Positions 1-11,600 of a stretch of 59,241 bases of DNA are shown one piece after another. The translations under genes and the position numbers were made by a program. Position 1 is the first letter of the stretch, and every line of letters starts with the position of its first letter. Source of the DNA: Hyphomonas sp. (GTDB lineage Bacteria > Pseudomonadota > Alphaproteobacteria > Caulobacterales > Hyphomonadaceae); the NCBI GenBank assembly GCA_002700305.1, contig PACZ01000053.1:1-59241 (forward strand), given 5' to 3'. The notes under the pieces were generated by a model. That model was given only the letters and a program-made list of their open reading frames with translations. It had not been told where the DNA came from and ran no database searches.

Positions 1-45
1 TCATACCGCCTTACTGTGACGAGGTAGCGGCATGAACGCCGCTAC

Positions 46-354
46 GTGGAAACCGCCGGACTAACATTACCGGTGGACCACCCCTGTGGGGCAGAGCAGA
101 GGCATGGAGCGTATCGCTGGACGTCCGAAGCGCGAGGCAAGTTTGCGAATGACTCCATCAATCTGCTCCCCGTTGAGGTGTCACTAAACCGCTCCAAAGG
201 CGATAGCCCACCCAGCGAATGGTTGCCGGATGAGAACCGGTGCGCCTACGTCAGCCGCTTTTTACGTATTGCCAAGACCTACGACCTTGCACTGCCGACA
301 GCGGAACGAAATTTCATTCATACAGAACTTGAGAACTGCAAGACTGCGGAGTGA
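46..354 (+). pseudogene. HNH endonuclease (DUF1524/GmrSD C-terminal type), broken fragment
   Basis: Residues about 22-100 carry the hallmarks of the C-terminal half of DUF1524-type HNH nucleases: GAYRWTSE, FANDSINLL, NRSKGD, EWLP and CAYVSRF. Just upstream only a degenerate VDH remains where the family has a (D/E)xDHVVPL-like catalytic motif. The frame is closed by a TAG at 25-27, so no complete N-terminus can be read. A frameshift near 80-105 is likely, because a neighbouring frame reads a better match to the missing motif. Intact members are usually secreted or phage/island nucleases. The gene is likely dead unless a sequencing error closed the frame. Confidence 0.6.
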
Positions 355-463
355 ATTCGAAGTGGATGCTTTAGCCGGTCGTAAATTGCTATACTGCTTG
401 TGAAGTATAACTCGATACCGTTCAGCGGATTCAATAATACGCGTTTTCGAGGGCAGGACTTAC

Positions 464-904
464 ATGTTAGCACGGACAAAACGCGACCTGTATGAAATCG
501 CTCGATTGGTTGTTTTGATCTCCGGAGCCTTAGCTTTAGCGGTGGTTTTTCATCGTATGATACTGAAAGGCCCCGACGCCCAGATACGCAAATTCAAAAC
601 AGCTGCCTTGTTTGAAGCAATCGACGCAAACGCTGATGGCAGAATCTTAATCGAAGAATTTAGCGCCACTCACGAGGAACCGTTCGTTCAAGTCTGGCTT
701 CGGTCGTTGGTAGACAATTCATTTTGGTATGAAAGAAGAGTGCCCGAAAGCTCATCATACATTCTGGACCCCATAAATTCGGGAAATTGGTCCATGGAAT
801 CAAGTATAAGACTAGGCAGCATCTTCAAATCAATTGACGCAAATGAGGATGGTCAGGTTACTGAAGATGAACTCTTCAGGTGGGTTAGCGTAAAGCCGTC
901 CTAG
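464..904 (+). CDS. Membrane-anchored EF-hand protein
   Basis: This 146-residue protein has an N-terminal hydrophobic segment (about 14-30, ending near VVFHR) that could be a signal anchor. Two canonical EF-hand loops follow. The first spans residues 54-65 with D54, N56, D58, G59 and E65. The second spans 125-136 with D125, N127, D129, G130 and E136. Calcium binding outside the cytoplasmic membrane is the natural inference; no enzymatic domain is visible. The DNA is AT-richer than the chromosome to the right, fitting island cargo. The start at 464 follows a purine-rich GAGGGCAGGA stretch. Confidence 0.7.
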   Translation: MLARTKRDLYEIARLVVLISGALALAVVFHRMILKGPDAQIRKFKTAALFEAIDANADGRILIEEFSATHEEPFVQVWLRSLVDNSFWYERRVPESSSYILDPINSGNWSMESSIRLGSIFKSIDANEDGQVTEDELFRWVSVKPS

Positions 905-1014
905 CTTCAATTTGAATGACTGATACTCGCAATCTAAAGACCAAATAGCCCAATTGGTCTTAGAAGTATTGACCCAAGGCCCAGTCGTTGCAAAAGGTTA
1001 ACGACGAGGTTTCG

Positions 1015-1191
1015 ATGTCGGATTCACAGCGAGTAAGCCTTTCGCATATGATGAACGTAGCCATGGTGTTTTGGCTAGTAATGCTGGTTCTTTCGGCGGG
1101 ATATTGGCTACAAAGCGAATTGGACCCGCCCCACCCGGTACATATGACGACTATTGAATTTGATGCGGCGGGTTCGAAGCCCTTGCGCTAG
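1015..1191 (+). CDS. Small single-span membrane protein, unknown
   Basis: A 58-residue ORF starts at the ATG at 1015, preceded by GACGAGG at about ribosome-binding distance. A longer TTG start at 988 is less likely. One hydrophobic segment (about residues 12-33, MMNVAMVFWLVMLVLSAGYW) is followed by a short polar tail. No family is recognised. It lies between the EF-hand gene and the convergent end of the small-gene operon. Confidence 0.4.
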   Translation: MSDSQRVSLSHMMNVAMVFWLVMLVLSAGYWLQSELDPPHPVHMTTIEFDAAGSKPLR

Positions 1192-1229
1192 ATTTATTGG
1201 CTAGTTCCGTTCGAGATTGTTCGGATCTT

Positions 1230-1415
1230 TCAGAACTCGAATCCGGTCTGCAAAAGCGCCTGGAACAATTTTCGCTCTTCGTCTGTCAAGCAGCCCTCCC
1301 GACAGCGTTGTCGCACCATGGCCTCCAGCACATGCGTCGGAATGTCTTCCATACAAGCATAGTTTGGCAGCGCCTTGCTTTCGAGGCGCCCTAGCCGCTT
1401 TGCGAGCGTGTTCAT
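1230..1415 (-). CDS. Small protein, last gene of a translationally coupled island operon
   Basis: The ORF encodes 61 residues beginning MNTLAKRLGRLESKALP. Its ATG at 1415 overlaps the stop of the preceding gene (ATGA), which sets the start; a longer frame up to 1523 exists but would ignore the coupling. The N-terminal RLGRLESK pattern resembles the starts of several other proteins in this operon (for example RLKALEGK and RVARLEQR), suggesting short coiled coils. Function unknown. Confidence 0.55.
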   Translation of the reverse strand: MNTLAKRLGRLESKALPNYACMEDIPTHVLEAMVRQRCREGCLTDEERKLFQALLQTGFEF

Positions 1416-1558
1416 TGCAGCAACTGCAAGACCAACATGATCAACCCGAAGACGGTGACACAGCTTATCCCAAAGCTTAGCCAGAAAGGCATCCAGCCGC
1501 GACGATACCAAGGTGGACGGCATTCACGCATGGCGTTGCCTCCAACTTCGCGTTTCAT
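1412..1558 (-). CDS. Very small membrane protein in the coupled operon
   Basis: The ORF encodes 48 residues. After a short basic N-terminus, a hydrophobic stretch (about residues 24-48, MPFWLSFGISCVTVFGLIML) is almost certainly a single membrane span ending at the C-terminus. The ATG at 1558 overlaps the upstream gene's stop by 4 bases, and its own stop overlaps the next start in the same way. The frame is open further upstream to 1774, but that part overlaps two other genes. Position and topology would suit a holin-like or small anchor protein, but nothing proves that. Confidence 0.5.
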   Translation of the reverse strand: MKREVGGNAMRECRPPWYRRGWMPFWLSFGISCVTVFGLIMLVLQLLQ

Positions 1559-1719
1559 ATCCATGTGTCTTGCTCCAGTTTCGCATCGAACCGCTGGCGC
1601 TCGATGGCAAATGCAATCGCCCTTGCAATCGTACGAGCATCCTGCGGCCACCGCCATGAGCAACGCTGATTTCGGGGACGTCTCTGTTCGAGTCGGGCAA
1701 CTCGCACCTTGAGGGTCAT
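1555..1719 (-). CDS. Small basic protein in the coupled operon
   Basis: The ORF encodes 54 residues beginning MTLKVRVARLEQRRPRNQR. It is strongly basic, with a short N-terminal helix of the same RxARLEQR pattern as its neighbours. The ATG at 1719 overlaps the stop of the upstream gene (ATGA). No known family. Functional inference is limited to membership of the six-gene overlapping set. Confidence 0.5.
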   Translation of the reverse strand: MTLKVRVARLEQRRPRNQRCSWRWPQDARTIARAIAFAIERQRFDAKLEQDTWI

Positions 1720-1958
1720 AAGTCGGCCCCCACCATTGCTGAACAGCGCGCCCTGAAGGCATCGCAACTTTCATTATCTTCGCGTCTCAGCTGTTTCCCA
1801 GCATGCGGCCCTTTGAGGATGGAGGCCAGTTTTGGGCCAAGGTTAACCGGCCCGTCCGGACTGGGAGCAACCGAACAAATGTAAATAATGCCGAGTTGTG
1901 AACCACGAAGACCGGCCTTGCCTTCCAGTGCTTTCAGTCGGCGCTCCAGACCGCTCAT
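1716..1958 (-). CDS. Small protein in the coupled operon, unknown
   Basis: The ORF encodes 80 residues with an N-terminal MSGLERRLKALEGKAG helix, then a hydrophobic strand (LGIIYICSV) and a charged C-terminal half. Small proteins with this opening are often found in phages and islands close to terminase or DUF5681 genes, but I cannot name the family. The ATG overlaps the stop of the DUF5681 gene by 4 bases, and the stop overlaps the next ATG equally. Confidence 0.55.
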   Translation of the reverse strand: MSGLERRLKALEGKAGLRGSQLGIIYICSVAPSPDGPVNLGPKLASILKGPHAGKQLRREDNESCDAFRARCSAMVGADL

Positions 1959-2437
1959 GCCTGCCGTTCCTCAAGCGCCCGCAATCGCGCTTCCAGTTCG
2001 GTTGTTTCGAGAGCCTTCCGATAGCCTTCCACCAAGCCGCTAAGACTGCGGGCTTCCAATGGGGTCAAGTGCCCCTTTGCGACGCTTTCCAGAATAGCGC
2101 CCATTGCCTTGGCGGCACTCTCCGCACCTTCCATGCGTGGCATTGAGAGCATGACAGGCGCATCCTTCCTTGGTGGATGCAGACGCTCCAGGCAAAGTCG
2201 CAGGGCCGTCACATCCCCTTCTAGGGCCATTTCAATAGCCTTGCGGGTGATGGCCTCCCCCTCCCCGTCCAGCAAGGCCTGTATGGCGAGAGTCACCTTG
2301 TTACGCGAACCTTTCGGCCGCCCCGGGTTGCCCGGCTTGAACTGGTGCTCGACCGGCGGCGACGCGTTCCCGCGTTTCTTCTGAGGCGCGCCCGTACCCG
2401 CTCCCGTACTTTCGGATCCACATTGCTTACCGGTCAT
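1955..2437 (-). CDS. DUF5681 domain protein
   Basis: This 160-residue protein carries a clear DUF5681 signature at about residues 32-50 (FKPGNPGRPKGSRNKVT). An alpha-helical region follows (IQALLDGEGEAITRKAIEMA, then LRLCLERLHPPRKD). DUF5681 proteins are common in proteobacterial prophages and islands; the basic GRPKGSRNK stretch suggests nucleic-acid contact, and some have been suggested to be terminase-small-subunit-like. The C-terminal third is a likely coiled coil (LEARLRALEERQA). Start and stop are both embedded in ATGA overlaps. It is the only gene of the operon with a recognisable domain. Confidence 0.75.
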   Translation of the reverse strand: MTGKQCGSESTGAGTGAPQKKRGNASPPVEHQFKPGNPGRPKGSRNKVTLAIQALLDGEGEAITRKAIEMALEGDVTALRLCLERLHPPRKDAPVMLSMPRMEGAESAAKAMGAILESVAKGHLTPLEARSLSGLVEGYRKALETTELEARLRALEERQA

Positions 2438-2682
2438 TGTTGCCTCCGTTCCTCGTTCAGTCGTCGCCGGGCATGTTCGAGCCGCTCGGCAATACTCATA
2501 TGCCTTCCGTCAGAAGCAGGACCGGTCCTCTCAGGAATCCCCGCCCGCTTTCGAGCCCTGGACATACGTTCTGTCAAAGCGGCAAGACGGGCCTCATGAA
2601 GCTTGCTCGCGGGCGCTCCATATTCACGGCACTCCGTTTCAAGCCGGTCAATGCGCGCCCTGATGCTATTGGCTCTGCCCAA
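2434..2682 (-). CDS. Small coiled-coil protein, first gene of the coupled operon
   Basis: The ORF encodes 82 charged residues with heptad-like pattern (SIRARIDRLETECREYG, then AERLEHARRRLNEERR). The start is TTG at 2682 with GGAGG immediately before it. That start is supported by a diverged copy at 4469-4564 that begins with ATG at the same position (MSRTVSIRARIDRIE against MGRANSIRARIDRLE). The gene's stop overlaps the DUF5681 start by 4 bases. It marks one side of the cargo insertion described in the findings. Confidence 0.6.
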   Translation of the reverse strand: MGRANSIRARIDRLETECREYGAPASKLHEARLAALTERMSRARKRAGIPERTGPASDGRHMSIAERLEHARRRLNEERRQQ

Positions 2683-2970
2683 CCTCCGCCCTCATTTCAA
2701 TGCGTACCATTGACAGCAATACTACATATCATATCGATATTTTCTTGGTGCAGACAAGTAGCCCCATTCGCACATTTTGCGAGCGCTGCGCTTAAACCGG
2801 CTTGCGGCAGAGACGTAACAGCGTGGACGCCGCAACAGAAAACCGACGGTCAAATAAGTCCCGCTGATCAGCCTGAAGCGCCAGAGCAATTTGGGCGCTC
2901 TTCTTGCATTGGGTTGATGAATTGAAATGACTGAATAAGTTGTGACAACTTTATTTTTGAAAGCCACCAC
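2683..2970. other. Intergenic stretch between the operon start and the cargo gene
   Basis: About 290 bases. A reading frame exists on the minus strand (2722-2970) but shows no recognisable domain, and I do not support it as a gene. The segment should hold the divergent promoters of the small-gene operon and of the 505-residue cargo gene; I cannot point to convincing boxes. Confidence 0.4.
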
Positions 2971-4488
2971 ATGGAAGCTGTAGTTGTCATTGCGGTAGTA
3001 TTTTACGCAGTACTCGCCATATTTATCGGAAGCGTCAGTGAACGTCGAGGCAAAGGATTTGCTCTTGGGTTTTGGCTCTCTGTGCTCACTTCACCGGTTA
3101 TTGCCCTTCTCGTCATCATCGCACTAGGCAATGAAAATGCTGGTCATTCAATCAATTCTGGGAGCTTAGCTGCCTCAAAGTGGCAGGAACTAAATGACAC
3201 AACTGACCCGATAAAACTGTCCGCCTTCGTGGAAGCATTTCCTGGTTCTGAAGAAGCTTTTCTCGCTTCGCAGCGAAAGCAACAACTTGATCAGTGGAGA
3301 AAATCAGATCCCACCGACGCCGAAAGTCTAGCCAGATTCGTTTTCAACCCGGAGTACGCATGGCTGAGTGGTGAAATCAGGGCAACCATCGCTAGTAACT
3401 CTTCTGCTAGTGCGAACCTCGCGAAATTGAATGAAGAGCTACAACGACAGGACGCTCAAGAAGAAATTGAACGAAGGGAAGCGGAAAAGAAAGCCGCAGA
3501 ACAACTTGCGGAGAATGAGCGGCTCCGACAGGTCAAGGAGCAGCAAGATCTGCTCTCATACGAGAAGAATGTGCGATTTGTTGCCGTGGTCGCTGTCCTT
3601 CTGCTCGTCGGATTTGGCGCCGTCTATTTTGTCCCTCGTCTATTTGACTATTGGGCGACCAAAAACGCATTAGCCAGAGCCAGCCAGAGCCATGTCCAGA
3701 AACTGGCAGAATGCACACAGCTGGAGAGAGCCGCCGATGATGCGGCGTCTCGCGACCAGATGCAAAACTCGGAACTGGCTCGTGAAATTGATGCCAAGCA
3801 ACTCGATTTGCGTGAGCTTGAATTCAAATTCAAAGAAAAGTTTGAGGCTAAGAAGCTCGACCTTATGACCGAGGCCACAAAAAATATCCGCCTCACAATT
3901 CGCAAATCGCCAGTCTCTTTTGGCTACATCGCAACCGTTTACAACGGTAGTCCATACTGCGTCGCCAACCTGGCTGGAATCCCAATGGACCTATACAATG
4001 GCTCTGCTTTTGTTGACCGAGTGCAGTTTGAGGAATTGTATCCATGGTGGGCATTTGACAAAGAATTAGATCGAGATGGCTACGAGAAGCCCTGCATCGC
4101 ATCCTCAGGAAATACCGCAGAAAGCCACAATCCTCTCAGCATTGCTGGCGCGACAACCCGATTCATCAACCTTTCTTCAAACGTGCGGTACAGAGCATCC
4201 ATAGACCCGACCGAATTTGCTTCTGTGTTGACTGAGCTTCGAAGCGAAAAGCAGGGTAGCTCTGTGAAGTGGTACGCAAAGCCGGTTGATTGGGATGCAT
4301 TGGCAACCGCGAACCTGAAAGATGATGAATATGTCTTGGATGATTTGACGGCAGAACTGTCCAAATTGAAATCGCAGCTTGAAGAGTCAGAAGAGCGGAG
4401 AGCTTTCTTGGCGGCACAGAACAGACTAAAAATATGCCGCCAAGAGGAGCTAAACCTAGAGCAGGAACTCAGCTCATTGGAAAAATAA
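2971..4488 (+). CDS. Cargo membrane protein with two coiled coils, unknown family
   Basis: This 505-residue protein has a visible four-part layout. The N-terminal membrane anchor (about 3-52) has two hydrophobic segments joined by SERRGKGFALGF and ends SPVIALLVIIALG. A coiled coil (about 148-200) is rich in E, R, K and Q. A third span (about 203-225) and a second coiled coil (240-300) follow. A C-terminal domain (about 305-430) contains several Cys, Tyr and Trp residues, and a last coiled coil closes the protein. The anchor type is shared with the convergent gene at 5134-5838. No enzymatic motif is seen. The DNA is AT-richer than the flanking core genes. Domain placement suggests a membrane-spanning sensor or scaffold, which is inference only. 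Confidence 0.7.
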   Translation: MEAVVVIAVVFYAVLAIFIGSVSERRGKGFALGFWLSVLTSPVIALLVIIALGNENAGHSINSGSLAASKWQELNDTTDPIKLSAFVEAFPGSEEAFLASQRKQQLDQWRKSDPTDAESLARFVFNPEYAWLSGEIRATIASNSSASANLAKLNEELQRQDAQEEIERREAEKKAAEQLAENERLRQVKEQQDLLSYEKNVRFVAVVAVLLLVGFGAVYFVPRLFDYWATKNALARASQSHVQKLAECTQLERAADDAASRDQMQNSELAREIDAKQLDLRELEFKFKEKFEAKKLDLMTEATKNIRLTIRKSPVSFGYIATVYNGSPYCVANLAGIPMDLYNGSAFVDRVQFEELYPWWAFDKELDRDGYEKPCIASSGNTAESHNPLSIAGATTRFINLSSNVRYRASIDPTEFASVLTELRSEKQGSSVKWYAKPVDWDALATANLKDDEYVLDDLTAELSKLKSQLEESEERRAFLAAQNRLKICRQEELNLEQELSSLEK

Positions 4489-4564
4489 CTTCCGCATAGG
4501 CATCTGTCCGGCACTTCGTCTCAATCCGGTCAATGCGCGCCCTGATGCTAACAGTCCTGCTCAT
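4469..4564 (-). pseudogene. Truncated copy of the operon's first gene (31 codons)
   Basis: The reading frame MSRTVSIRARIDRIETKCRT... is a close relative of the start of the gene at 2434-2682. At the DNA level 4510-4550 and 2628-2669 differ at only about three positions. After about 20 codons the similarity ends, and the frame closes inside the 3' end of the cargo gene. It has its own GGGGAGGG before the ATG. I read it as a leftover boundary of an insertion rather than a working gene. Confidence 0.65.
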
Positions 4565-4612
4565 ATCCCTCCCCCTCTCTGTTGCACCCCCGTATGGGTA
4601 TAAAGGCGGTAC

Positions 4613-4744
4613 TCATGCGGCACCGTCGATGACCCGGAAATTGCCTTGACGAGTACCCGTGCGGCACGCAAGTTCATCGCTTCGGTACTCAGCCGGCACG
4701 CGAGGGCGTTTTGCATGCCATCTCGGTACCGAAGATCTGATTTG
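4613..4744 (-). pseudogene. Duplicated 3' end of the winged-helix gene
   Basis: The translated C-terminus (PRVPAEYRS..., ...GTRQGNFRVIDGAA) aligns with the last 36 or so residues of the gene at 6440-6970 (RAPGGYRS..., ...GTRPSGFRVIDGSV), and the DNA is clearly alignable. No upstream winged-helix portion is present. The copy lies directly before the truncated copy of the small-gene operon start, so 4469-4744 looks like a remnant of an undisturbed core junction with cargo on both sides. Confidence 0.65.
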
Positions 4745-4814
4745 GCGACAATACAAGCTGTCCCGATTGCCGGGGCTAAACCTCTGAATGCGGTTGGCTT
4801 GTGAGCACCGCTTC

Positions 4815-5033
4815 CTAATCCAGTTCGATATCGTGCTCAGCCTTGCGTAAGTCCAGATAGAGGTCTTGCCACTTATCCAGAAGCTCAACCTCTATCTCGG
4901 TCGGTCTGTAATCTGCTATCCGCATTCCTAGCATGAACCGGCCTGGCGGGTTCGCTCGCATTAGGACAGTCATACGTCCTTGGTCTTCGTCTGCGAGTAG
5001 TTCCCAGCCTAGAGTAGTGTCTCGATCGATCAT
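4815..5033 (-). CDS. Small acidic hypothetical protein
   Basis: The ORF encodes 72 residues beginning MIDRDTTLGWELLADEDQ, with a balanced composition and a plausible beta-rich middle (MTVLMRANPPGRFMLGMRI). No family recognised and no strong ribosome-binding site. It follows the membrane-anchored cargo gene on the same strand after about 100 bases. Confidence 0.45.
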   Translation of the reverse strand: MIDRDTTLGWELLADEDQGRMTVLMRANPPGRFMLGMRIADYRPTEIEVELLDKWQDLYLDLRKAEHDIELD

Positions 5034-5133
5034 TCAATTTTTAGCCAACTTACGAGCAGCTTTCTGATTTGCTTGCAGCGGTTCATTAGAAGCTTGATGA
5101 AATGGATCGCGCCGAACGTAGATCAACAGGGGA

Positions 5134-5838
5134 TTAAATTCCTCGCTTGGACAGAATGTCCGCTTTGAGTCGTTGGTCTTCCGCGTTCAATTCAATTGTA
5201 TGTCCCAAGAGGCCGAGTGTGCCACCACGGACGGTTCGAGTTAAGGTTAGTCCGTTGCGGACAATGACGACATCATGACTTGCTGTTGAATCGACTGTGG
5301 TGATTGCGTGCAGAAGGTCTTCTTTTGACACTATTTCAAGATCAGCATAAAGAATAATTTTGTCACCCTGCATGAGGCGCGCTGTAGCGGCATTGCTATT
5401 CTTTTTGAATTTGTCAATTTGGAATGCCGACCGGGCGTTTTTTTCTGCTTCAATCTTGCGGGTGTGTGCGAGCAGCGCCGTCTCGGTTTGATGGGCAAAA
5501 GCGAGCGCTTCGTCGATAGTTCCAAACGATTCAGACCCGCATATTATTTCGCCAAGAACATCGTTCCTTTGAATGTTGTACTTTTCAACTAGCCATACTT
5601 TGTATTGAGGATTTGAAAGTTGCCGCGTTAGAATCGCAGGTGCCTCAGTTTTCTGGGCGGCACTCGATACGGGTTCTGACCTGTCCTTCATTGCAATTAT
5701 GACAAGCAGCGCAATGAGTGGAGAGGCAATCAATGAGATTGCAAAGCCAACGGCAAAGCCTTGCCCTCTATTGTCGCTAATGTTGCCAATAAGGATTGCA
5801 AGACCAATCCAAACGGCGAGTACAAGTATAAAATCCAT
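5134..5838 (-). CDS. Cargo membrane protein with shared two-segment anchor
   Basis: This 234-residue protein starts at the ATG at 5838, preceded by GGGGAAAAG; an open frame to 5913 is less likely. The N-terminus (about 2-48) has two hydrophobic segments around SDNRGQGFAVGFAISL and ends SPLIALLVIIAM, almost the same as the 505-residue cargo protein. A polar region and a helical stretch (about 100-140) follow. The C-terminal domain (about 145-225) has strands such as KIILYADLEIV and DVVIVRNGLTLTRTV, resembling a small PDZ-like fold. That last point is only an impression. The DNA is AT-rich for this chromosome. Confidence 0.65.
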   Translation of the reverse strand: MDFILVLAVWIGLAILIGNISDNRGQGFAVGFAISLIASPLIALLVIIAMKDRSEPVSSAAQKTEAPAILTRQLSNPQYKVWLVEKYNIQRNDVLGEIICGSESFGTIDEALAFAHQTETALLAHTRKIEAEKNARSAFQIDKFKKNSNAATARLMQGDKIILYADLEIVSKEDLLHAITTVDSTASHDVVIVRNGLTLTRTVRGGTLGLLGHTIELNAEDQRLKADILSKRGI

Positions 5839-5976
5839 ATGTTTTCTTTTCCCCAACTGACCTGAACCGACCAATAGATATATTGCTGTTAAGTTCTGTC
5901 CTTCAGCTAACATTTATCGCGAATTCACTCCGACACCTCTACGGCTTATGGAATCAGGAGAGCAAATCGATTCCCC

Positions 5977-6453
5977 TTAGGTGTGAATTGAAAACCAGGT
6001 TTGCGCGTTCGCGCAGATGTAAGCTGGGCCTGTCATTGCTGCACCGCTACCTGCGCGCAATTTCGGGGGATAGTCTGATGTCGGCGAGTATTTGCCGGTC
6101 GCCGGTGACCGCTTGAATTTGTAGTCCGGAAATGCTTGCCCGGCCCATTCCCCAGCTAATTCATGTGACCCGGCTTTTCGAGGCAGCGCATTGGAACTAA
6201 TCATGAACGTATGATATTTGACCGCATCCGATCTTCTCGACTGGACAGCATTGTAAGAGCGCTCCACAGCGTTCCAGCCCGCTCTATTTTCGACAAGTTG
6301 AAGGGCAGCGACCTGACTCATGGGGATGAGGTCGCGAAATACCGCTCGCTCGCGGAAATCATCAATTCGGAGCTCGATGTGCTCGAAGGTACCCGGCCAA
6401 ACCTGGACGAACAGAACTATTGGTGGGAGGTAGATTAGTCTATACGGAACCAT
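5977..6453 (-). CDS. Hypothetical protein with N-terminal hydrophobic segment
   Basis: From the ATG at 6453 the ORF gives 158 residues, overlapping the stop of the winged-helix gene by 14 bases. The N-terminus (MVPYRLIYLPPIVLFVQVW) looks like a signal peptide or anchor, and the rest is polar with no recognised motif. The same frame stays open to 6669, but that part lies inside the upstream gene. An ORF on the other strand at 6211-6438 competes with it and looks weaker. Confidence 0.4.
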   Translation of the reverse strand: MVPYRLIYLPPIVLFVQVWPGTFEHIELRIDDFRERAVFRDLIPMSQVAALQLVENRAGWNAVERSYNAVQSRRSDAVKYHTFMISSNALPRKAGSHELAGEWAGQAFPDYKFKRSPATGKYSPTSDYPPKLRAGSGAAMTGPAYICANAQTWFSIHT

Positions 6454-6970
6454 CGATGACACGAAAGCCGGAAGGGCGAGTACCGTGCTGGTATACAGAA
6501 GCTGCGCTTCGATACCCGCCCGGCGCACGAGACGCTTTTGCATCCCGTACCCGTACCGACGGTTTGCTTTTCCCGCGCGATGGTCCAGTCCACCGCTTCC
6601 AGTCATGTGTCGCCAGGTGGCCGTCATGCTTCTCAGTAGTGAGAATGTATTCGGCAGCAAGCCGCCCATACCATTGCCCCTCCCGTCGCCTTTTCAGGAA
6701 GCCCTTCTCAACCAGTTCATCGAATGCTCGCTTCACGCTCGACTTTGACATACCAAGCAGGTCCGCAGCGTCCTGGTAGCTGAGCGAAAGACGGCCATTG
6801 TTAACCCCGTTGAACCGGCTACGAAGTTCAATGAATACCTTGAGCGCGTTCCCGCTCAGGTGCCTGAAGGCTACGCTTTTCGTCAGGTTGTAAGGAAGGG
6901 GCATGTACTGCCCCTCCCCCGTGTTGCGACCCTTGGCGTTAACGCCTTTGCGTCTGGGCTTACGCGACAT
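6440..6970 (-). CDS. Winged-helix DNA-binding protein of the island core
   Basis: This 176-residue protein starts at MSRKPRRKGVNAKG (ATG 6970). Residues about 25-110 form a winged helix: SGNALKVFIELRSRF, then LSLSYQDAADLLGMSKSSVKRAFDEL, where the recognition helix is SKSSVKRAFDEL, then the wing GFLKRRR. The arrangement resembles replication-initiator or MarR/DnaD-like HTH proteins of satellites and plasmids; regulator or replication protein cannot be separated here. The start overlaps the stop of the upstream gene by 11 bases. Its 3' end is duplicated at 4613-4744. Confidence 0.65.
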   Translation of the reverse strand: MSRKPRRKGVNAKGRNTGEGQYMPLPYNLTKSVAFRHLSGNALKVFIELRSRFNGVNNGRLSLSYQDAADLLGMSKSSVKRAFDELVEKGFLKRRREGQWYGRLAAEYILTTEKHDGHLATHDWKRWTGPSRGKSKPSVRVRDAKASRAPGGYRSAASVYQHGTRPSGFRVIDGSV

Positions 6971-7241
6971 CGGCATCCTCCATGCGCAGAACGACACTAT
7001 GCAGGACATAGCGGGCATGATTGCCGGGAAACGGCCCAGAGTGGCGCTCTGTGATAGTCTCTATGTCCACACCCAGCCCGCGCAAGACATGCACATAGCC
7101 GCTCCAGCGCGGCGCCGGATTGTCGATCGGCGTGCAGCCCTTCAATCCCGCCTCAGCCAACTGGAGCAAGGCCCACTCGGGGCGCCCCGTCACGTCGATG
7201 ATGTGGGAACCGTTCTGGCCAATAATCTGGTATTTCGCCAT
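6960..7241 (-). CDS. Small winged-helix-type island protein
   Basis: The ORF encodes 93 residues beginning MAKYQIIGQNGSHIIDVTGR. The pattern (GRPEWALLQLAEAGLKGCT, then DNPAPRWSGYVHVLRGLGVDI) is typical of short winged-helix proteins found in alphaproteobacterial prophages and islands, with strands, an HTH-like helix pair and a final strand (ARYVLHSVVLR). The start is 2 bases after the stop of the upstream gene. A DNA-binding regulatory role is likely but unproven. Confidence 0.6.
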   Translation of the reverse strand: MAKYQIIGQNGSHIIDVTGRPEWALLQLAEAGLKGCTPIDNPAPRWSGYVHVLRGLGVDIETITERHSGPFPGNHARYVLHSVVLRMEDADVA

Positions 7242-7242
7242 G

Positions 7243-7440
7243 TCAGTCCTCCTCCACATGGAGGCCTGCAAGACGGGCCATGAGCATGGCCACCGAAGGC
7301 GAATACACCCCGCGGCGCTGCATTTCACGGGCAGCCATACAGCGGGCCGGTTCGCGGCGCCGCTGGCTGTCAGCCCATTCTAATAGAGGCAGGGGGTTCA
7401 TGTTGCGTCGGCAACAGCGACGCGATACGCTGCGTTTCAT
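7243..7440 (-). CDS. Small basic hypothetical protein
   Basis: The ORF encodes 65 residues. The start at 7440 is chosen because CAGGAG lies 9 bases before that ATG; an internal ATG at 7401 is the alternative. The N-terminus is very basic (SVSRRCCRR), followed by a helix-rich body (LLEWADSQRRREPARCMAAR). It lies two bases upstream of the next gene and is likely cotranscribed with it. No family recognised. Confidence 0.5.
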   Translation of the reverse strand: MKRSVSRRCCRRNMNPLPLLEWADSQRRREPARCMAAREMQRRGVYSPSVAMLMARLAGLHVEED

Positions 7441-7475
7441 CGAAACGTCTCCTGAATAGCTGATTGATTTCGAAA

Positions 7476-7511
7476 GACCCCGGTGGCGGAGTACCAGTCC
7501 GCACCGGGGTC
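7476..7511 (-). terminator. Strong stem-loop between alpA-like gene and the downstream operon
   Basis: The arms GACCCCGGT-G-GCGGA and TCCGC-ACCGGGGTC form a stem of about 14 pairs with one bulge around a short loop. A T-run follows on the plus strand and a shorter TTTC on the minus strand. The genes on both sides read on the minus strand, so it probably ends or attenuates transcription after the AlpA-type gene. Confidence 0.6.
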
Positions 7512-7532
7512 GCTTTTTATCGAGGCGGCGCA

Positions 7533-7733
7533 TTATGCCGCCTCCGACGTGCTGTTGCGCTGGCGGCTTTCTAACCAGGCTTCCACGTCGCTCCAGCGAT
7601 AACGCACCGAGCGACCGAGTTTCACGAAAGGCGGGGTGTGCGGATGACCAAGCATACGCCGCTTCGCCCACGTTGTGGCACCAGTACCCGTGCGCCGGGC
7701 TAGTTCATTCGTATCGATGATTTCTGACAACAT
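7533..7733 (-). CDS. AlpA-family regulator / excisionase-like HTH protein
   Basis: This 66-residue protein has the typical AlpA/MerR-like helix-turn-helix: IIDTNELARRTGTGATTWAKRR, the linker GHPHTPPFVKLGRSVRYRWSDVEAWLE, and a short tail. AlpA-type proteins of satellites activate integrase or act as excision factors. Its position one gene away from the integrase supports that role here. Length is normal for the family. Confidence 0.85.
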   Translation of the reverse strand: MLSEIIDTNELARRTGTGATTWAKRRMLGHPHTPPFVKLGRSVRYRWSDVEAWLESRQRNSTSEAA

Positions 7734-7829
7734 CTAAGGGGCTCCTTTCAAACCTAAGAATATCTCGGCTTGGATGGAGCATGTTTGATGTGAGAGCTGT
7801 TGCGCAAATTTGTTTCAGCGCAACAGCCA

Positions 7830-8594
7830 TCATTCTATTTTTGCCTTGAAATCCCGATTGTGTGGAATCGGAGGTTCCAGCCAATCTTCTGGAGGACCTT
7901 CCGCTAAATTCCAAATGGCAAACGCCCTTTCTATTTGCGGCCACCGGCGAACAATTGTGCTTGGCGATACTCCGGCAGCCTTTGCGTAGGCACGAACAGA
8001 TTGGTTTCGTTCGCCAGGCCAGTCAGGGCCCATGTTGTAGTATATTCTTTGGACCAGCTGGAAAATCGATGCCTTCTCATCTCCCCGAGGGTTATTGCCC
8101 ACCAATCTCAACGAAATCAGGTAGGTCAATGAATGTGGAGGGATGACCCCCTGCGTCATGCAAGTCTCCAGCATAACGGCGGCTATGTAATTTATATCTG
8201 CATTGCTGGCAGCTAGCTTTCGCCGGACCGCATGTGATTGCCCGCTTAGTCTAGAAGCTTGTTCGGTACGATGCAGAAGCGTCAAGGCTGTTAGGTCAAT
8301 AGCGTCCGGGTCCCCGTAAGAGGCGCGGAAAAAAATTTTGGCAGGAACTCCAAGCTCACCTGCTGTATCCAGCAACATCAGACGCTCAAAAGTGTCATAG
8401 TTGAACGCATACGCCGGGAAGTCTGGGCGTATATTCTTTTGACGAATTTCCAGATAATCCGCCAATGTTCCCACAACTGAAAATTCATACACTATCGTCG
8501 ATTCATCATCTGCAGCAGACAGATATTCCTCAATATCTTGTCGCAACATTTCTTCGAACTTAGGGTCCAGATGTGACTTTCTGCCGACAGACAT
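7830..8594 (-). CDS. Integrase-coupled hypothetical protein with C-terminal HTH-like segment
   Basis: This 254-residue protein starts at the ATG at 8594, which overlaps the integrase stop as TGATG and makes the two genes translationally coupled. The C-terminal part has an HTH-like pattern (VRAYAKAAGVSPSTIVRRW). The N-terminal 180 residues are helical and not recognised. The coupling suggests a function in integration, excision or its control. Confidence 0.7.
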   Translation of the reverse strand: MSVGRKSHLDPKFEEMLRQDIEEYLSAADDESTIVYEFSVVGTLADYLEIRQKNIRPDFPAYAFNYDTFERLMLLDTAGELGVPAKIFFRASYGDPDAIDLTALTLLHRTEQASRLSGQSHAVRRKLAASNADINYIAAVMLETCMTQGVIPPHSLTYLISLRLVGNNPRGDEKASIFQLVQRIYYNMGPDWPGERNQSVRAYAKAAGVSPSTIVRRWPQIERAFAIWNLAEGPPEDWLEPPIPHNRDFKAKIE

Positions 8595-9841
8595 CACTTC
8601 TCCTTCCCATTCAGAGATGCTCTAAATTCAATTCGAGTCATCAACTCGTTGCCAATTGCCTCAGCCGCATTCCGCATTGGAGTCGCTGAAAGATGGGCAT
8701 ATCGCGAAGTGGTCGAAACATCGGAATGCCCGAGCAACCCCCCGATAACCTGCATGCTCACACCACCGGCTGCAGCAACACTCGCAAAACTGTGGCGCAA
8801 GTCATGCAGCCGCACGGATTGCAAACCTGCTCGTTGACGTACCTTCGCCCATACCTTCGCTGTCCCTTGGTATGAACCGTTCGCGCGAACTGCCGGAAAT
8901 ACATACTCGGAACACCCCAATTTTGGGATACCCTCCAATATACTGACCGCCGCCATGTTTAACACAATCAGCTTCTGGCCTGTCTTTGAATCTCCCAAAC
9001 GAAGGCAGTGAAATTGTCGATCGATTTCGCTCCACTTTAGACTCTCAATCTCGCCCTTTCGCGCTCCAGTAAGCAACAGAAGACGGATGATAGCTATCGC
9101 GTAGGGATTCTCCCCTTCTGCTTCAGCCTTTGCCAAAGCCCCCCCCAATCTCGCCAGTTCATCCGCATCCAGGAACCGCTCATTGCGTCGGTCTCGGTAC
9201 CGCTTCACACCTCGCACTGGATTTTCTTTCAGCAGGCCCGCCTCAATCGCGTATGTGAAGATGCCTCCAAGCAAGCCTACTGTGCGGGTCGCCGTTCCCT
9301 TCCCCCCTTTTACGATTGCCCTGCCCCGCTTTCGGGTTTTCAAATCTACCGCAGTCTTTCCAACAGCTACGTCCTGAAGGAATTGCGTTACGTGGGCACG
9401 CGTCACGTCAGTGATGCGCATCTTTCCCAAGAGTGGCTTTATATGCCGCTCAATACGGCCCCGGTCTGTTGCAAGCGTGGAAGCCTTTTTTGTGGCGACA
9501 CCAGCCTCCAGATACCGGTCACACAGCTCGGCCAATGTAATAATGGCCTTGGCATCCTGCTTCTCTCTCGCCGGGTCTTCGCCTTGCGCGACACGCCCAA
9601 GAATACGAGAGGCTTCTTTCCGCGCGGCATCAGGCGTCCAAGGTGACCCATGCGCTCCGATAGTCATACGGCGTGACGGTGCACTCCGGCCAGAACCCGC
9701 GCGATACTTGCAGACGTAGACCTTACGTCCGCCCTTGCAGACTTTCAGGCCAAAGCCTTTCAGCTCCCCATCCCAAAGGAAGTAATCCTTTTCCTCCGGT
9801 TTGGCGGCTTTGACGGTGGCGAGTGAAATTCGTTTGGACAT
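8594..9841 (-). CDS. int: Tyrosine integrase (DUF4102 type)
   Basis: This 415-residue site-specific recombinase has an N-terminal arm-binding DUF4102 domain (about 1-90, with WDGELKGFGLKV), a core-binding SAM-like domain (about 100-205) and a C-terminal catalytic domain. The catalytic set is complete: R261 (TGARKGE), K287 (SKTG), H346 and R349 (HDLRHSF), H372 (LGHSD) and nucleophile Y381. The gene starts about 155 bases from the tRNA-Arg fragment, the usual arrangement for tRNA-targeting islands. It is followed by a coupled ORF. Everything needed for activity is present. Confidence 0.95.
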   Translation of the reverse strand: MSKRISLATVKAAKPEEKDYFLWDGELKGFGLKVCKGGRKVYVCKYRAGSGRSAPSRRMTIGAHGSPWTPDAARKEASRILGRVAQGEDPAREKQDAKAIITLAELCDRYLEAGVATKKASTLATDRGRIERHIKPLLGKMRITDVTRAHVTQFLQDVAVGKTAVDLKTRKRGRAIVKGGKGTATRTVGLLGGIFTYAIEAGLLKENPVRGVKRYRDRRNERFLDADELARLGGALAKAEAEGENPYAIAIIRLLLLTGARKGEIESLKWSEIDRQFHCLRLGDSKTGQKLIVLNMAAVSILEGIPKLGCSEYVFPAVRANGSYQGTAKVWAKVRQRAGLQSVRLHDLRHSFASVAAAGGVSMQVIGGLLGHSDVSTTSRYAHLSATPMRNAAEAIGNELMTRIEFRASLNGKEK

Positions 9842-9995
9842 GCGTGGTTACTCCGGCGCGATAAGAACCACATAGTAACCACCATTCAGGGAAGCTCAAG
9901 AAACCTCAGGAAACGACTGCGCCATTGATTTATTGATTTATTTGATTTTTTATCAAAAACGGGAACCGCCAGAATCCTTAGGAAATCTTATACCC

Positions 9996-10045
9996 CTGCC
10001 CTCCGAAGGCAGAGGTCAGAGGTTCGAATCCTCTTGGGTGCGCCA
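9996..10045 (+). other. attR candidate: 3' part of a tRNA-Arg(CCG) gene
   Basis: The sequence has an anticodon arm (CTGCC-CTCCGAA-GGCAG, anticodon CCG), a variable loop, a T arm (AGAGG-TTCGAAT-CCTCT), an acceptor strand, a discriminator G and an encoded CCA at 10043-10045. No D arm or 5' acceptor strand precedes it, so it cannot be a functional gene. This is the usual right attachment site left when an element integrates at the 3' half of a tRNA gene. The intact gene should lie at the other end of the element. Confidence 0.85.
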
Positions 10046-10094
10046 GCTTTTTCACTGCAGACAGGCCCTCGCCAGGGACGACCGGGACGCCAGG

Positions 10095-11600
10095 TCAGAT
10101 CCCCTGCTCCGTCAGGGCGCCGCGGACTGTTTTGAGCGCCTCGCGCGGCTGGCCCGACAGGAGGATGCGTACTGCCCTCAGGATGTGACGGCCAAGGCGG
10201 GGCATGAAGAAGTACAGCGCCACCGGATAGATCAGCGCCCCCAGCACGATTGTGGCGACCACATGGAGCAGCGGATGGGCGAGATCCGGCACGAAATCCA
10301 TGAACAGCCAGACGGCAAGCCCCATGACACAGGAGGCAAAGAAGGCCGCCGACCCCGCAAGCAGCTGGCGGATGACCGTGAACCCGACCACGCGCTGGAT
10401 CATCCAGGTACTCAGCACGAACGTGATCACCTGCTTGGCCAGAAGGCCCAGCGCGATGGCCACGATGCCATACTGATAAGTGAAGGCGAGGAGAATGGAG
10501 GTCGCAATGATTGAGGTCAGCGTGATCCACGCCACCACATCCGGCCGGCCAACACCGCGGAACACGCCCAGAATGATCGCCGTGATCGGCGCACGCAGGC
10601 CGATGACCATATAGATCTGGAAAATCGGGACACTCGGCGCCCATTGCTCACCGAAGACGACGGGGATCGCGACCGGCGCCACAACGAAGGCGCCCATGAA
10701 GGTCGGATAGGCCAGCAAGGCGGACATGCGGATGGCGCTGTCCATCGCCTGATGAAGCGTCTCGCGATTGTCCTGCATGGCCGAGGCGACCGGCATCGCC
10801 ACGGCGGCAAACGGCGCGATCAGGGCCTGGTTTGCCTGCTGGAAAAGCCGCTCGGGCAGATTGAACAGCCCGACCGCATGCGAGCCGAGCGTCATGCCGA
10901 TCAGTGTCTTTGGCAGCATCTGGTCGAATGTCTGCAGAATCTTGGAAGCGCCATTGGCCAGATTGAACCGGATCAGTTCCTGGAAGTCCGGCCAGCTGGA
11001 GCGGATACTGGGCGCCCACTTCGCGAAATAGAGGAAGCCGAATACCCGCACGACGCGGCGGGACAGTTCCATCCCAACCAGCGCCCATTCATTCCGCCAC
11101 ATCAGGGCCAGTGCAATGCCGACAATGGCCGCCGTCATGGTCCCCAGAATATCGATGACGGTGATTTCCTTGTAACGCAGATCACGCTGCAGAATAGCGG
11201 CCGGCACAGACATCACCGCGCCGATCGGCAGGATGGCCCCGGTCACGATCAAGACCGGCGCAACCGACGGCTCACCGAAAGCGTGCGCGATCCACGGCGC
11301 CAGCAGAACCAGCAGCCCCCAGGCCGCAATGGAGAGCGTCATCGACTGCAGGAAAACCGAATTGATATGCCCGGGCCGCAATTCCTTCCGCTGGACGAGG
11401 GAATCGCCCAGCGTTCCCGAGGCGATCACCTCGGGCAGCATCACCACCATCAGCGCCATGACGAACACGCCATAATCTTCCGGCGTCAGGATCCGGGCAA
11501 TGATGACAATCGACAGGAACGAGCCGATCAGCGTCGTCCAGTTCGCAATCGCGTTGAGCGCGACCGCCTGTCCGGCCTTTTGAAGCAGGTTGGGTGCCAT
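10095..11600 (-). CDS. Polysaccharide flippase (MOP superfamily, Wzx-like)
   Basis: This 501-residue integral membrane protein has about 12-14 hydrophobic segments. It starts MAPNLLQKAGQAVALNAIANW, with the N-terminal family features IARILTPEDYGVFVMA and SLVQRKEL. It fits lipopolysaccharide/O-unit or exopolysaccharide flippases, which move lipid-linked sugar units across the inner membrane. It lies downstream of a GT2 gene on the same strand, with two more glycosyltransferases divergent from them. Confidence 0.85.
   Translation of the reverse strand: MAPNLLQKAGQAVALNAIANWTTLIGSFLSIVIIARILTPEDYGVFVMALMVVMLPEVIASGTLGDSLVQRKELRPGHINSVFLQSMTLSIAAWGLLVLLAPWIAHAFGEPSVAPVLIVTGAILPIGAVMSVPAAILQRDLRYKEITVIDILGTMTAAIVGIALALMWRNEWALVGMELSRRVVRVFGFLYFAKWAPSIRSSWPDFQELIRFNLANGASKILQTFDQMLPKTLIGMTLGSHAVGLFNLPERLFQQANQALIAPFAAVAMPVASAMQDNRETLHQAMDSAIRMSALLAYPTFMGAFVVAPVAIPVVFGEQWAPSVPIFQIYMVIGLRAPITAIILGVFRGVGRPDVVAWITLTSIIATSILLAFTYQYGIVAIALGLLAKQVITFVLSTWMIQRVVGFTVIRQLLAGSAAFFASCVMGLAVWLFMDFVPDLAHPLLHVVATIVLGALIYPVALYFFMPRLGRHILRAVRILLSGQPREALKTVRGALTEQGI

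Follow-up and report, generated by a model that had tools for sequence, protein, structure and literature searches.

In lambda-type phages, the initiator gene O carries its own origin iterons. The RepA_N plasmids pSK41 and pTZ2162 encode initiators with a winged-helix N-terminal domain and have their origin repeats inside the rep frame, and the stretch of protein encoded by the origin of pSK41 is described as dispensable (PMC5703833). Among integrated elements, the PLE satellites of Vibrio cholerae harbor a RepA-type initiator and an iteron origin, for which swapping of the initiator/origin module and rearrangement of iterons have been reported (PMC7145576 and PMC8263062), and P2-like phages and P4-like satellites carry hot spots of variable genes (PMC9122126). 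Here we deal with a mobile island at the start of a 59,241-nucleotide stretch of DNA from Hyphomonas sp. (assembly GCA_002700305.1, contig PACZ01000053.1; hereafter the window), in which an origin-like element that relatives carry at the 3' end of a winged-helix initiator-like gene is found intact 1.7 kb away from that gene, amid cargo. The window forms the start of contig C5 of the source draft genome, G000, which comprises 56 contigs; G otherwise denotes genomes, L fetched loci or regions, and P protein-database clusters. The features central to the argument are these:

6440 to 6970, minus strand: winged-helix initiator-like gene (rep), the 3' end of which is a degenerate copy of the element, 6442-6559 (phrog_270, folds and element model).
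4589 to 4743, minus strand: intact origin-like element with a sister-allele rep tail, consisting of an inverted iteron, three direct iterons and an AT box (element model).
4509 to 4564, minus strand: truncated start of a small gene, an ATG and about 19 codons, with a purine-rich stretch just upstream (alignment, profile and genome search).
2434 to 2682, minus strand: the complete small gene, with a TTG start and 82 residues (seven protein-database relatives, 63-87% identity).

The inner block is made up of two repeats. The first pairs 4615-4743 with 6442-6570, the two being about two-thirds identical when small gaps are allowed, and its local score of 50 was reached by none of 1968 random window pieces of like length (maximum 33). 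The second aligns 4509-4577 with 2627-2693, with 84% identity over 55 ungapped nucleotides and three mismatches in the first 42, and its score of 70 was reached by none of 1959 random pieces (maximum 27). A profile drawn from 20 winged-helix relatives matches the minus-strand frame 4616-4891 at profile positions 134-176 (37.3 bits), a profile of eight small-gene sequences, including that of the window, matches the minus-strand frame 4472-4612 at positions 1-20 (31.1 bits), and a whole-genome search also recovered the truncated start (G000:C5:4505-4564). The first-pass annotation had proposed that the end of the winged-helix gene and the start of the small-gene operon are both repeated, and both alignments lie far above chance, but the second repeat begins at 4509 and not at 4469 as it supposed. 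The two pieces adjoin, as it had also noted, and do so at a natural spacing: the inner winged-helix copy stops at 4613-4615, and 48 nucleotides, containing the AT box and the purine-rich stretch, separate this stop from the small-gene ATG. Conservation among relatives continues for 24 nucleotides beyond the stop, to 4589; the copy at 6440 has no such stretch.

The inner copy had been read as the decayed remnant of a gene end; it proves instead to be an intact conserved element. Winged-helix relatives occur in 8 of 105 genomes of the family and 37 of 398 of the order, with the source genome included in both counts, and DNA was compared for the 18 best-scoring winged-helix regions together with three loci from another collection. 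Eight loci (L038-L045) have the same element, positioned across the winged-helix stop or immediately behind it. By eye, the alignment shows in it an inverted repeat resembling CGGTACCGAGACGGAACGC, three direct repeats near GCGTTCCGTNTGAGTACY and an AT box resembling CCTATAGAGTCTACCATACG. In L040-L045 most of the element is non-coding, because the winged-helix frame ends where the element starts or no more than about 33 nucleotides from there; in L038, L039 and the window the frame continues through it, which is why the inner copy looked like a gene end.

A profile of the eight loci, from which the window was excluded, scores 104.8 bits at 4732-4590 and 28.5 bits at the gene-borne copy (6559-6442), where the match ends before the AT box. 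With leave-one-out profiles the inner copy reached 95.0-104.7 bits, against 41.6-100.9 for the members omitted, and outscored the omitted member in seven of eight runs; the best score among 20 shuffled windows was 7.9. The left-out score of L038 was also weak (53.8 bits), yet the full element is present there, and L046 is the sole other fetched locus that scores well (50.4 bits). No match at E values up to 1 was obtained in L047-L055 or L035-L037, and more distant winged-helix relatives may therefore use other elements. In the window it is the gene-borne copy that is damaged, its AT box being gone, and cargo between initiator and element is found in none of the nine element-bearing relatives (L038-L046). 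A 26-nucleotide stretch of the element has no exact match in viral contigs, and no description of the element was met in the literature searched on satellites, iterons and cargo hot spots.

The best PHROG match of the winged-helix protein is phrog_270, a replication initiation protein (E 3.5e-12), and several O-like families also match, although, unlike the lambda-type O proteins that it resembles in this respect, it scores 20.2 bits with the Pfam family Phage replication protein O (PF04492), below the gathering score of 28.7. Its structural model (mean pLDDT 68.6) is mostly good over the core, residues 27-126, and falls below 50 over residues 140-176. The top fold matches are to RepA-type initiators (4pql, 4pt7, 5kbj and 4pta; best Foldseek E 9e-4, with VIA-align in agreement), which rank only slightly above other winged helices. 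A winged-helix N-terminal domain may be shared with the pSK41/pTZ2162 replicons, from which the island differs in that it is not a plasmid, that RepA_N (PF06970) is absent among the 19 Pfam families listed for the winged-helix protein at E values up to 0.1, and that the element lies at the 3' end of the gene and extends past the stop. As in PLE, an integrated island would here have a RepA-type initiator and an iteron origin, but what is described for PLE in the papers cited is module swapping and iteron rearrangement, not cargo placed between initiator and origin. Since the protein scores as an O-like initiator and its model most resembles RepA-type initiators, and since the element sits at the end of its gene, the element at 4589-4743 is probably the replication origin of the island.

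The inner block looks like the allele of a sister island. Over the winged-helix body, clusters P0011-P0016 have the same residue as the window protein at 114-118 of 128 positions, and their tails fall into two classes. In P0011, P0012 and P0015 the tail agrees with the window gene at 22-27 of 42 residues and with the inner copy at 17-18 of 44; in P0013, P0014 and P0016 it agrees with the inner copy at 27-32 of 44 and with the window gene at 16-20 of 42. Relatives with the window type of tail are known from proteins only, and we make no claim that all such tails have lost iterons. The first suggestion, that the copies are more like alleles from related elements, is supported by the fit of the inner tail to P0013 and P0014 (32 of 44 residues) as against the window's own tail (18 of 44). 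The truncated small gene is nearest to P0007 (16 of 18 residues), by a thin margin over P0005, P0006 and P0009 (15 of 18) and the others (13-15). The longest contig is 9738 nucleotides for both P0007 and P0013, and 9306 for both P0006 and P0015. Taken with the tail classes and the small-gene match, the equal longest contigs of these cluster pairs suggest that the winged-helix and small genes occur on the same islands, and that a P0013/P0007-like sister island may have supplied the inner 235 nucleotides (4509-4743). The expectation that other islands would show the winged-helix end directly followed by the small gene was not borne out in any of the 18 winged-helix regions, several of which end at contig breaks.

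We favor, with moderate confidence, the explanation that the island is a split replicon with a displaced origin. On this view a small element integrated in a tRNA would carry an O/RepA-like initiator of its own. In relatives the 3' end of the initiator gene is where the probable origin lies, with cargo beyond it; here the gene-borne origin would have lost its last half-iteron and AT box to a segment X and the first cargo gene, and the sister-island block, containing a rep tail, an intact origin and a small-gene start, would now lie downstream between two cargo genes. In this most likely working model the initiator at 6440-6970 would act on the displaced origin, given the roughly 90% identity between its body and that of the allele class to which the origin belongs. 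The arrangement could equally well have arisen by paired insertion of cargo, by accretion in tandem followed by deletion, or by the entry of a foreign origin fragment. The unit exchanged at the cargo zone probably includes an origin. The broader proposal that sister islands trade origins as small portable blocks, with the initiator continuing to use a distant foreign origin as cargo grows between them, is tentative and rather doubtful.

The cargo zone and the operon that follows it contain the following:

6211 to 6438, plus strand: segment X, a 75-residue open reading frame converging on rep (82% identity with L078, codon-position bias).
5134 to 5838, minus strand: cargo 1, with a membrane anchor (by eye) and a PDZ-like stretch (weak matches to RseP, DegP and PDZ models).
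4815 to 5033, minus strand: cargo 1b, 72 residues, without a family match.
2971 to 4488, plus strand: cargo 2, a 505-residue protein with no family above cut-off and an N-terminal stretch in common with cargo 1.
1955 to 2437, minus strand: DUF5681 protein, the next gene in the small operon (PF18932, 44 bits against a cut-off of 27.5).

The description of this region as a cargo hot spot holds, and cargo does lie on each side of the junction fragment, but the boundary is better named as the probable origin. Cargo between a replication module and a DUF5681 operon is echoed in two other islands. L078 (G000:C11:118001-138000), a second island in the same genome, has an integrase, a DUF3987 gene, segment X, cargo and then a DUF5681 operon; the end of the DUF3987 gene and the DNA directly beyond it carry repeats of the type GTTCGCCC, with segment X within about 12 nucleotides of them and an acyltransferase next (acyltransferase/SGNH cargo). 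In L076 (G046), cargo lies between the DUF5681 operon and a putative replication gene that resembles the DUF3987 gene in start and size. A tblastn comparison of the 18 winged-helix regions, the three further loci and 12 DUF5681 regions, some ended by contig breaks, found the winged-helix and DUF5681 genes together only in the window, and genome G112 carries them on different contigs. The variable cargo zone is reminiscent of the hot spots of P4-like satellites, from which it differs in its boundary, here the probable origin, and in that no defence family was found in the tested cargo proteins (no match to defence models among 10 proteins).

Segment X aligns window 6146-6439 with L078 6794-7087 at 82% over 294 nucleotides, and the L078 copy has two in-frame stops. 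At the DNA level it was found in 1 of the 105 family genomes, that of the source, where the window and L078 are its only places. A minus-strand cargo reading frame at 5977-6453 had tentatively been proposed here and is rejected, since codon-position bias and conservative changes favor the plus frame 6211-6438. In this frame 27 of 54 differences fall at third codon positions; one minus frame gives the same count but stops in both sequences. Cargo 1 matches the RseP, DegP and PDZ models far below their cut-offs (best E 1.9e-4); it was not found elsewhere in the 105 family genomes, and has one 87% relative in the protein database. Residues 4-54 of cargo 1 are 53% identical to cargo 2 over 51 residues, and the two genes have in common, in opposite orientation, an N-terminal hydrophobic stretch (window 2971-3130 and 5680-5838). 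Cluster P0002, a relative of cargo 1, is by eye less alike in the N-terminal stretch than in the rest, hinting at domain exchange. Several islands have, near DUF5681 or behind the replication module, a gene with an MGG(W/Y/L)(G/N)SGG-like motif (L039 9136-10017, L044 9341-9934, L045 10488-11072, L077 8550-9212).

The flanks of the cargo blocks bear on a different explanation, in which cargo cassettes entered the core junction twice by homologous recombination in short flanks, once at the initiator end and once at the small-gene start, leaving copies of the donor-allele flanks. Each cargo block is flanked by a repeated core-gene end, about two-thirds and 84% alike respectively, and L078, whose replication gene is of another type, has segment X as the window does, beginning in each case right beside the replication gene. 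We nevertheless consider this explanation unlikely: two independent events would be required, no donor or half-way island was seen, and the initiator-end repeat is diverged, so that an exchange there would be old. Transposon-borne cargo would be expected to have terminal inverted repeats and target duplications at its edges. Within 30 nucleotides of the edges of the cargo 1 block, the longest exact repeats are 5 nucleotides direct and 5 inverted, both common by chance; for cargo 2 they are 8 direct (4% of 300 random pairs) and 7 inverted (17%). No transposon-type repeat of at least 14 nucleotides occurs at the cargo edges among the repeat matches listed. Exchange by recombination in the flanks, as the first-pass annotation envisaged, is compatible with the repeats and may have occurred.

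The island itself is delimited by three further features:

9996 to 10045, plus strand: attachment core of 50 nucleotides, the 3' end of tRNA-Arg(CCG) and right end of the island (repeat match).
8594 to 9841, minus strand: tyrosine integrase (PF00589 and Arm-DNA-bind_3 above cut-off).
7533 to 7733, minus strand: AlpA-like excisionase or regulator (phrog_66, E 7e-7; 85% identical in G053).

The mobile island to which window positions 1-9995 belong is integrated at the 3' end of tRNA-Arg(CCG). Its attachment core occurs again, with one mismatch, at G000:C6:3934-3983, the place of an intact tRNA-Arg identified by ARAGORN, and the same-species genome G055 has an empty site, uninterrupted in L089 (core 7489-7538), with both flanks 96.6-98.7% identical. 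By virtue of its integrase, its 50-nucleotide attachment repeat and this empty site, the island has the site-specific integrase and direct-repeat attachment sites of integrated phage satellites of the PICI, P4 and PLE type. Such satellites also have a replication initiator and origin of their own, for which the initiator-like protein and the conserved repeat element are the candidates here, and are induced and packaged by a helper phage. Contigs C5 and C6 probably meet inside an insertion sequence, given the end at C6 position 1; this position and window position 1 resemble its two ends.

A genome of the same genus, G053, harbors a 6.5-kb relative island at this tRNA; the attachment cores of the two are 100% identical and their integrases 71%. 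This is consistent with tandem accretion of two islands at tRNA-Arg, in which a deletion would have fused the cargo end of the first to the initiator tail of the second, with cargo 2 acquired likewise; a fused sister junction is the expected product of such a deletion. However, window 1-10300 contains one attachment core and no second integrase stretch (best other tblastn hit 26 residues, E 0.66), two steps are required, and we regard this history as improbable, slightly more so than recombination in the flanks. Least probable of all is that the repeat array, rather than being an origin, serves the operon behind the winged-helix gene as a regulatory operator and promoter. The winged-helix fold does resemble many transcription regulators, and the small-gene start follows the element in the window, but the element keeps to the 3' end of the initiator gene while the genes behind it differ, and the best sequence families and top folds are replication initiators.

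Other parts of the island, and the distribution of its genes, can be described more briefly. The far island end next to the tRNA, C6:1-3933, contains a His-Xaa-Ser system (G000:C6:85-3754, L088), in which HxsB (radical SAM) and HxsC score above cut-off, HxsD reaches 48.9 bits against a cut-off of 50, and an HxsA-type repeat protein 32.9 against 55. An EF-hand protein with a hydrophobic N-terminal stretch (by eye) is encoded at window 464-904 on the plus strand. In the 398 order genomes the small gene was found below an E value of 1e-3 only in the source genome, with eight more matches at chance level (0.003-0.009), and in the 105 family genomes in the source and as one weak match at 0.008. In viral contigs the small-gene profile gave 16 pattern matches, none confirmed, and the winged-helix profile only two weak loci; a single-sequence scan of further genome contigs returned only three distant winged-helix relatives. 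Matches to phage records (four) and plasmid records (two) lie within the DUF5681 gene in five of six cases, the other being near 7001-7143. DUF5681 may be a packaging protein; in the literature searched it was met only in work on a Salmonella phage.

The displaced-origin explanation suggests a simple rule for these islands, namely that they take up cargo next to the replication origin, and the compact origin-like element may be used to find and delimit them. The window would provide a natural case in which the origin embedded in an initiator gene has seemingly been displaced and replaced by a sister allele, and with it the exchange of origins between related islands becomes directly testable.
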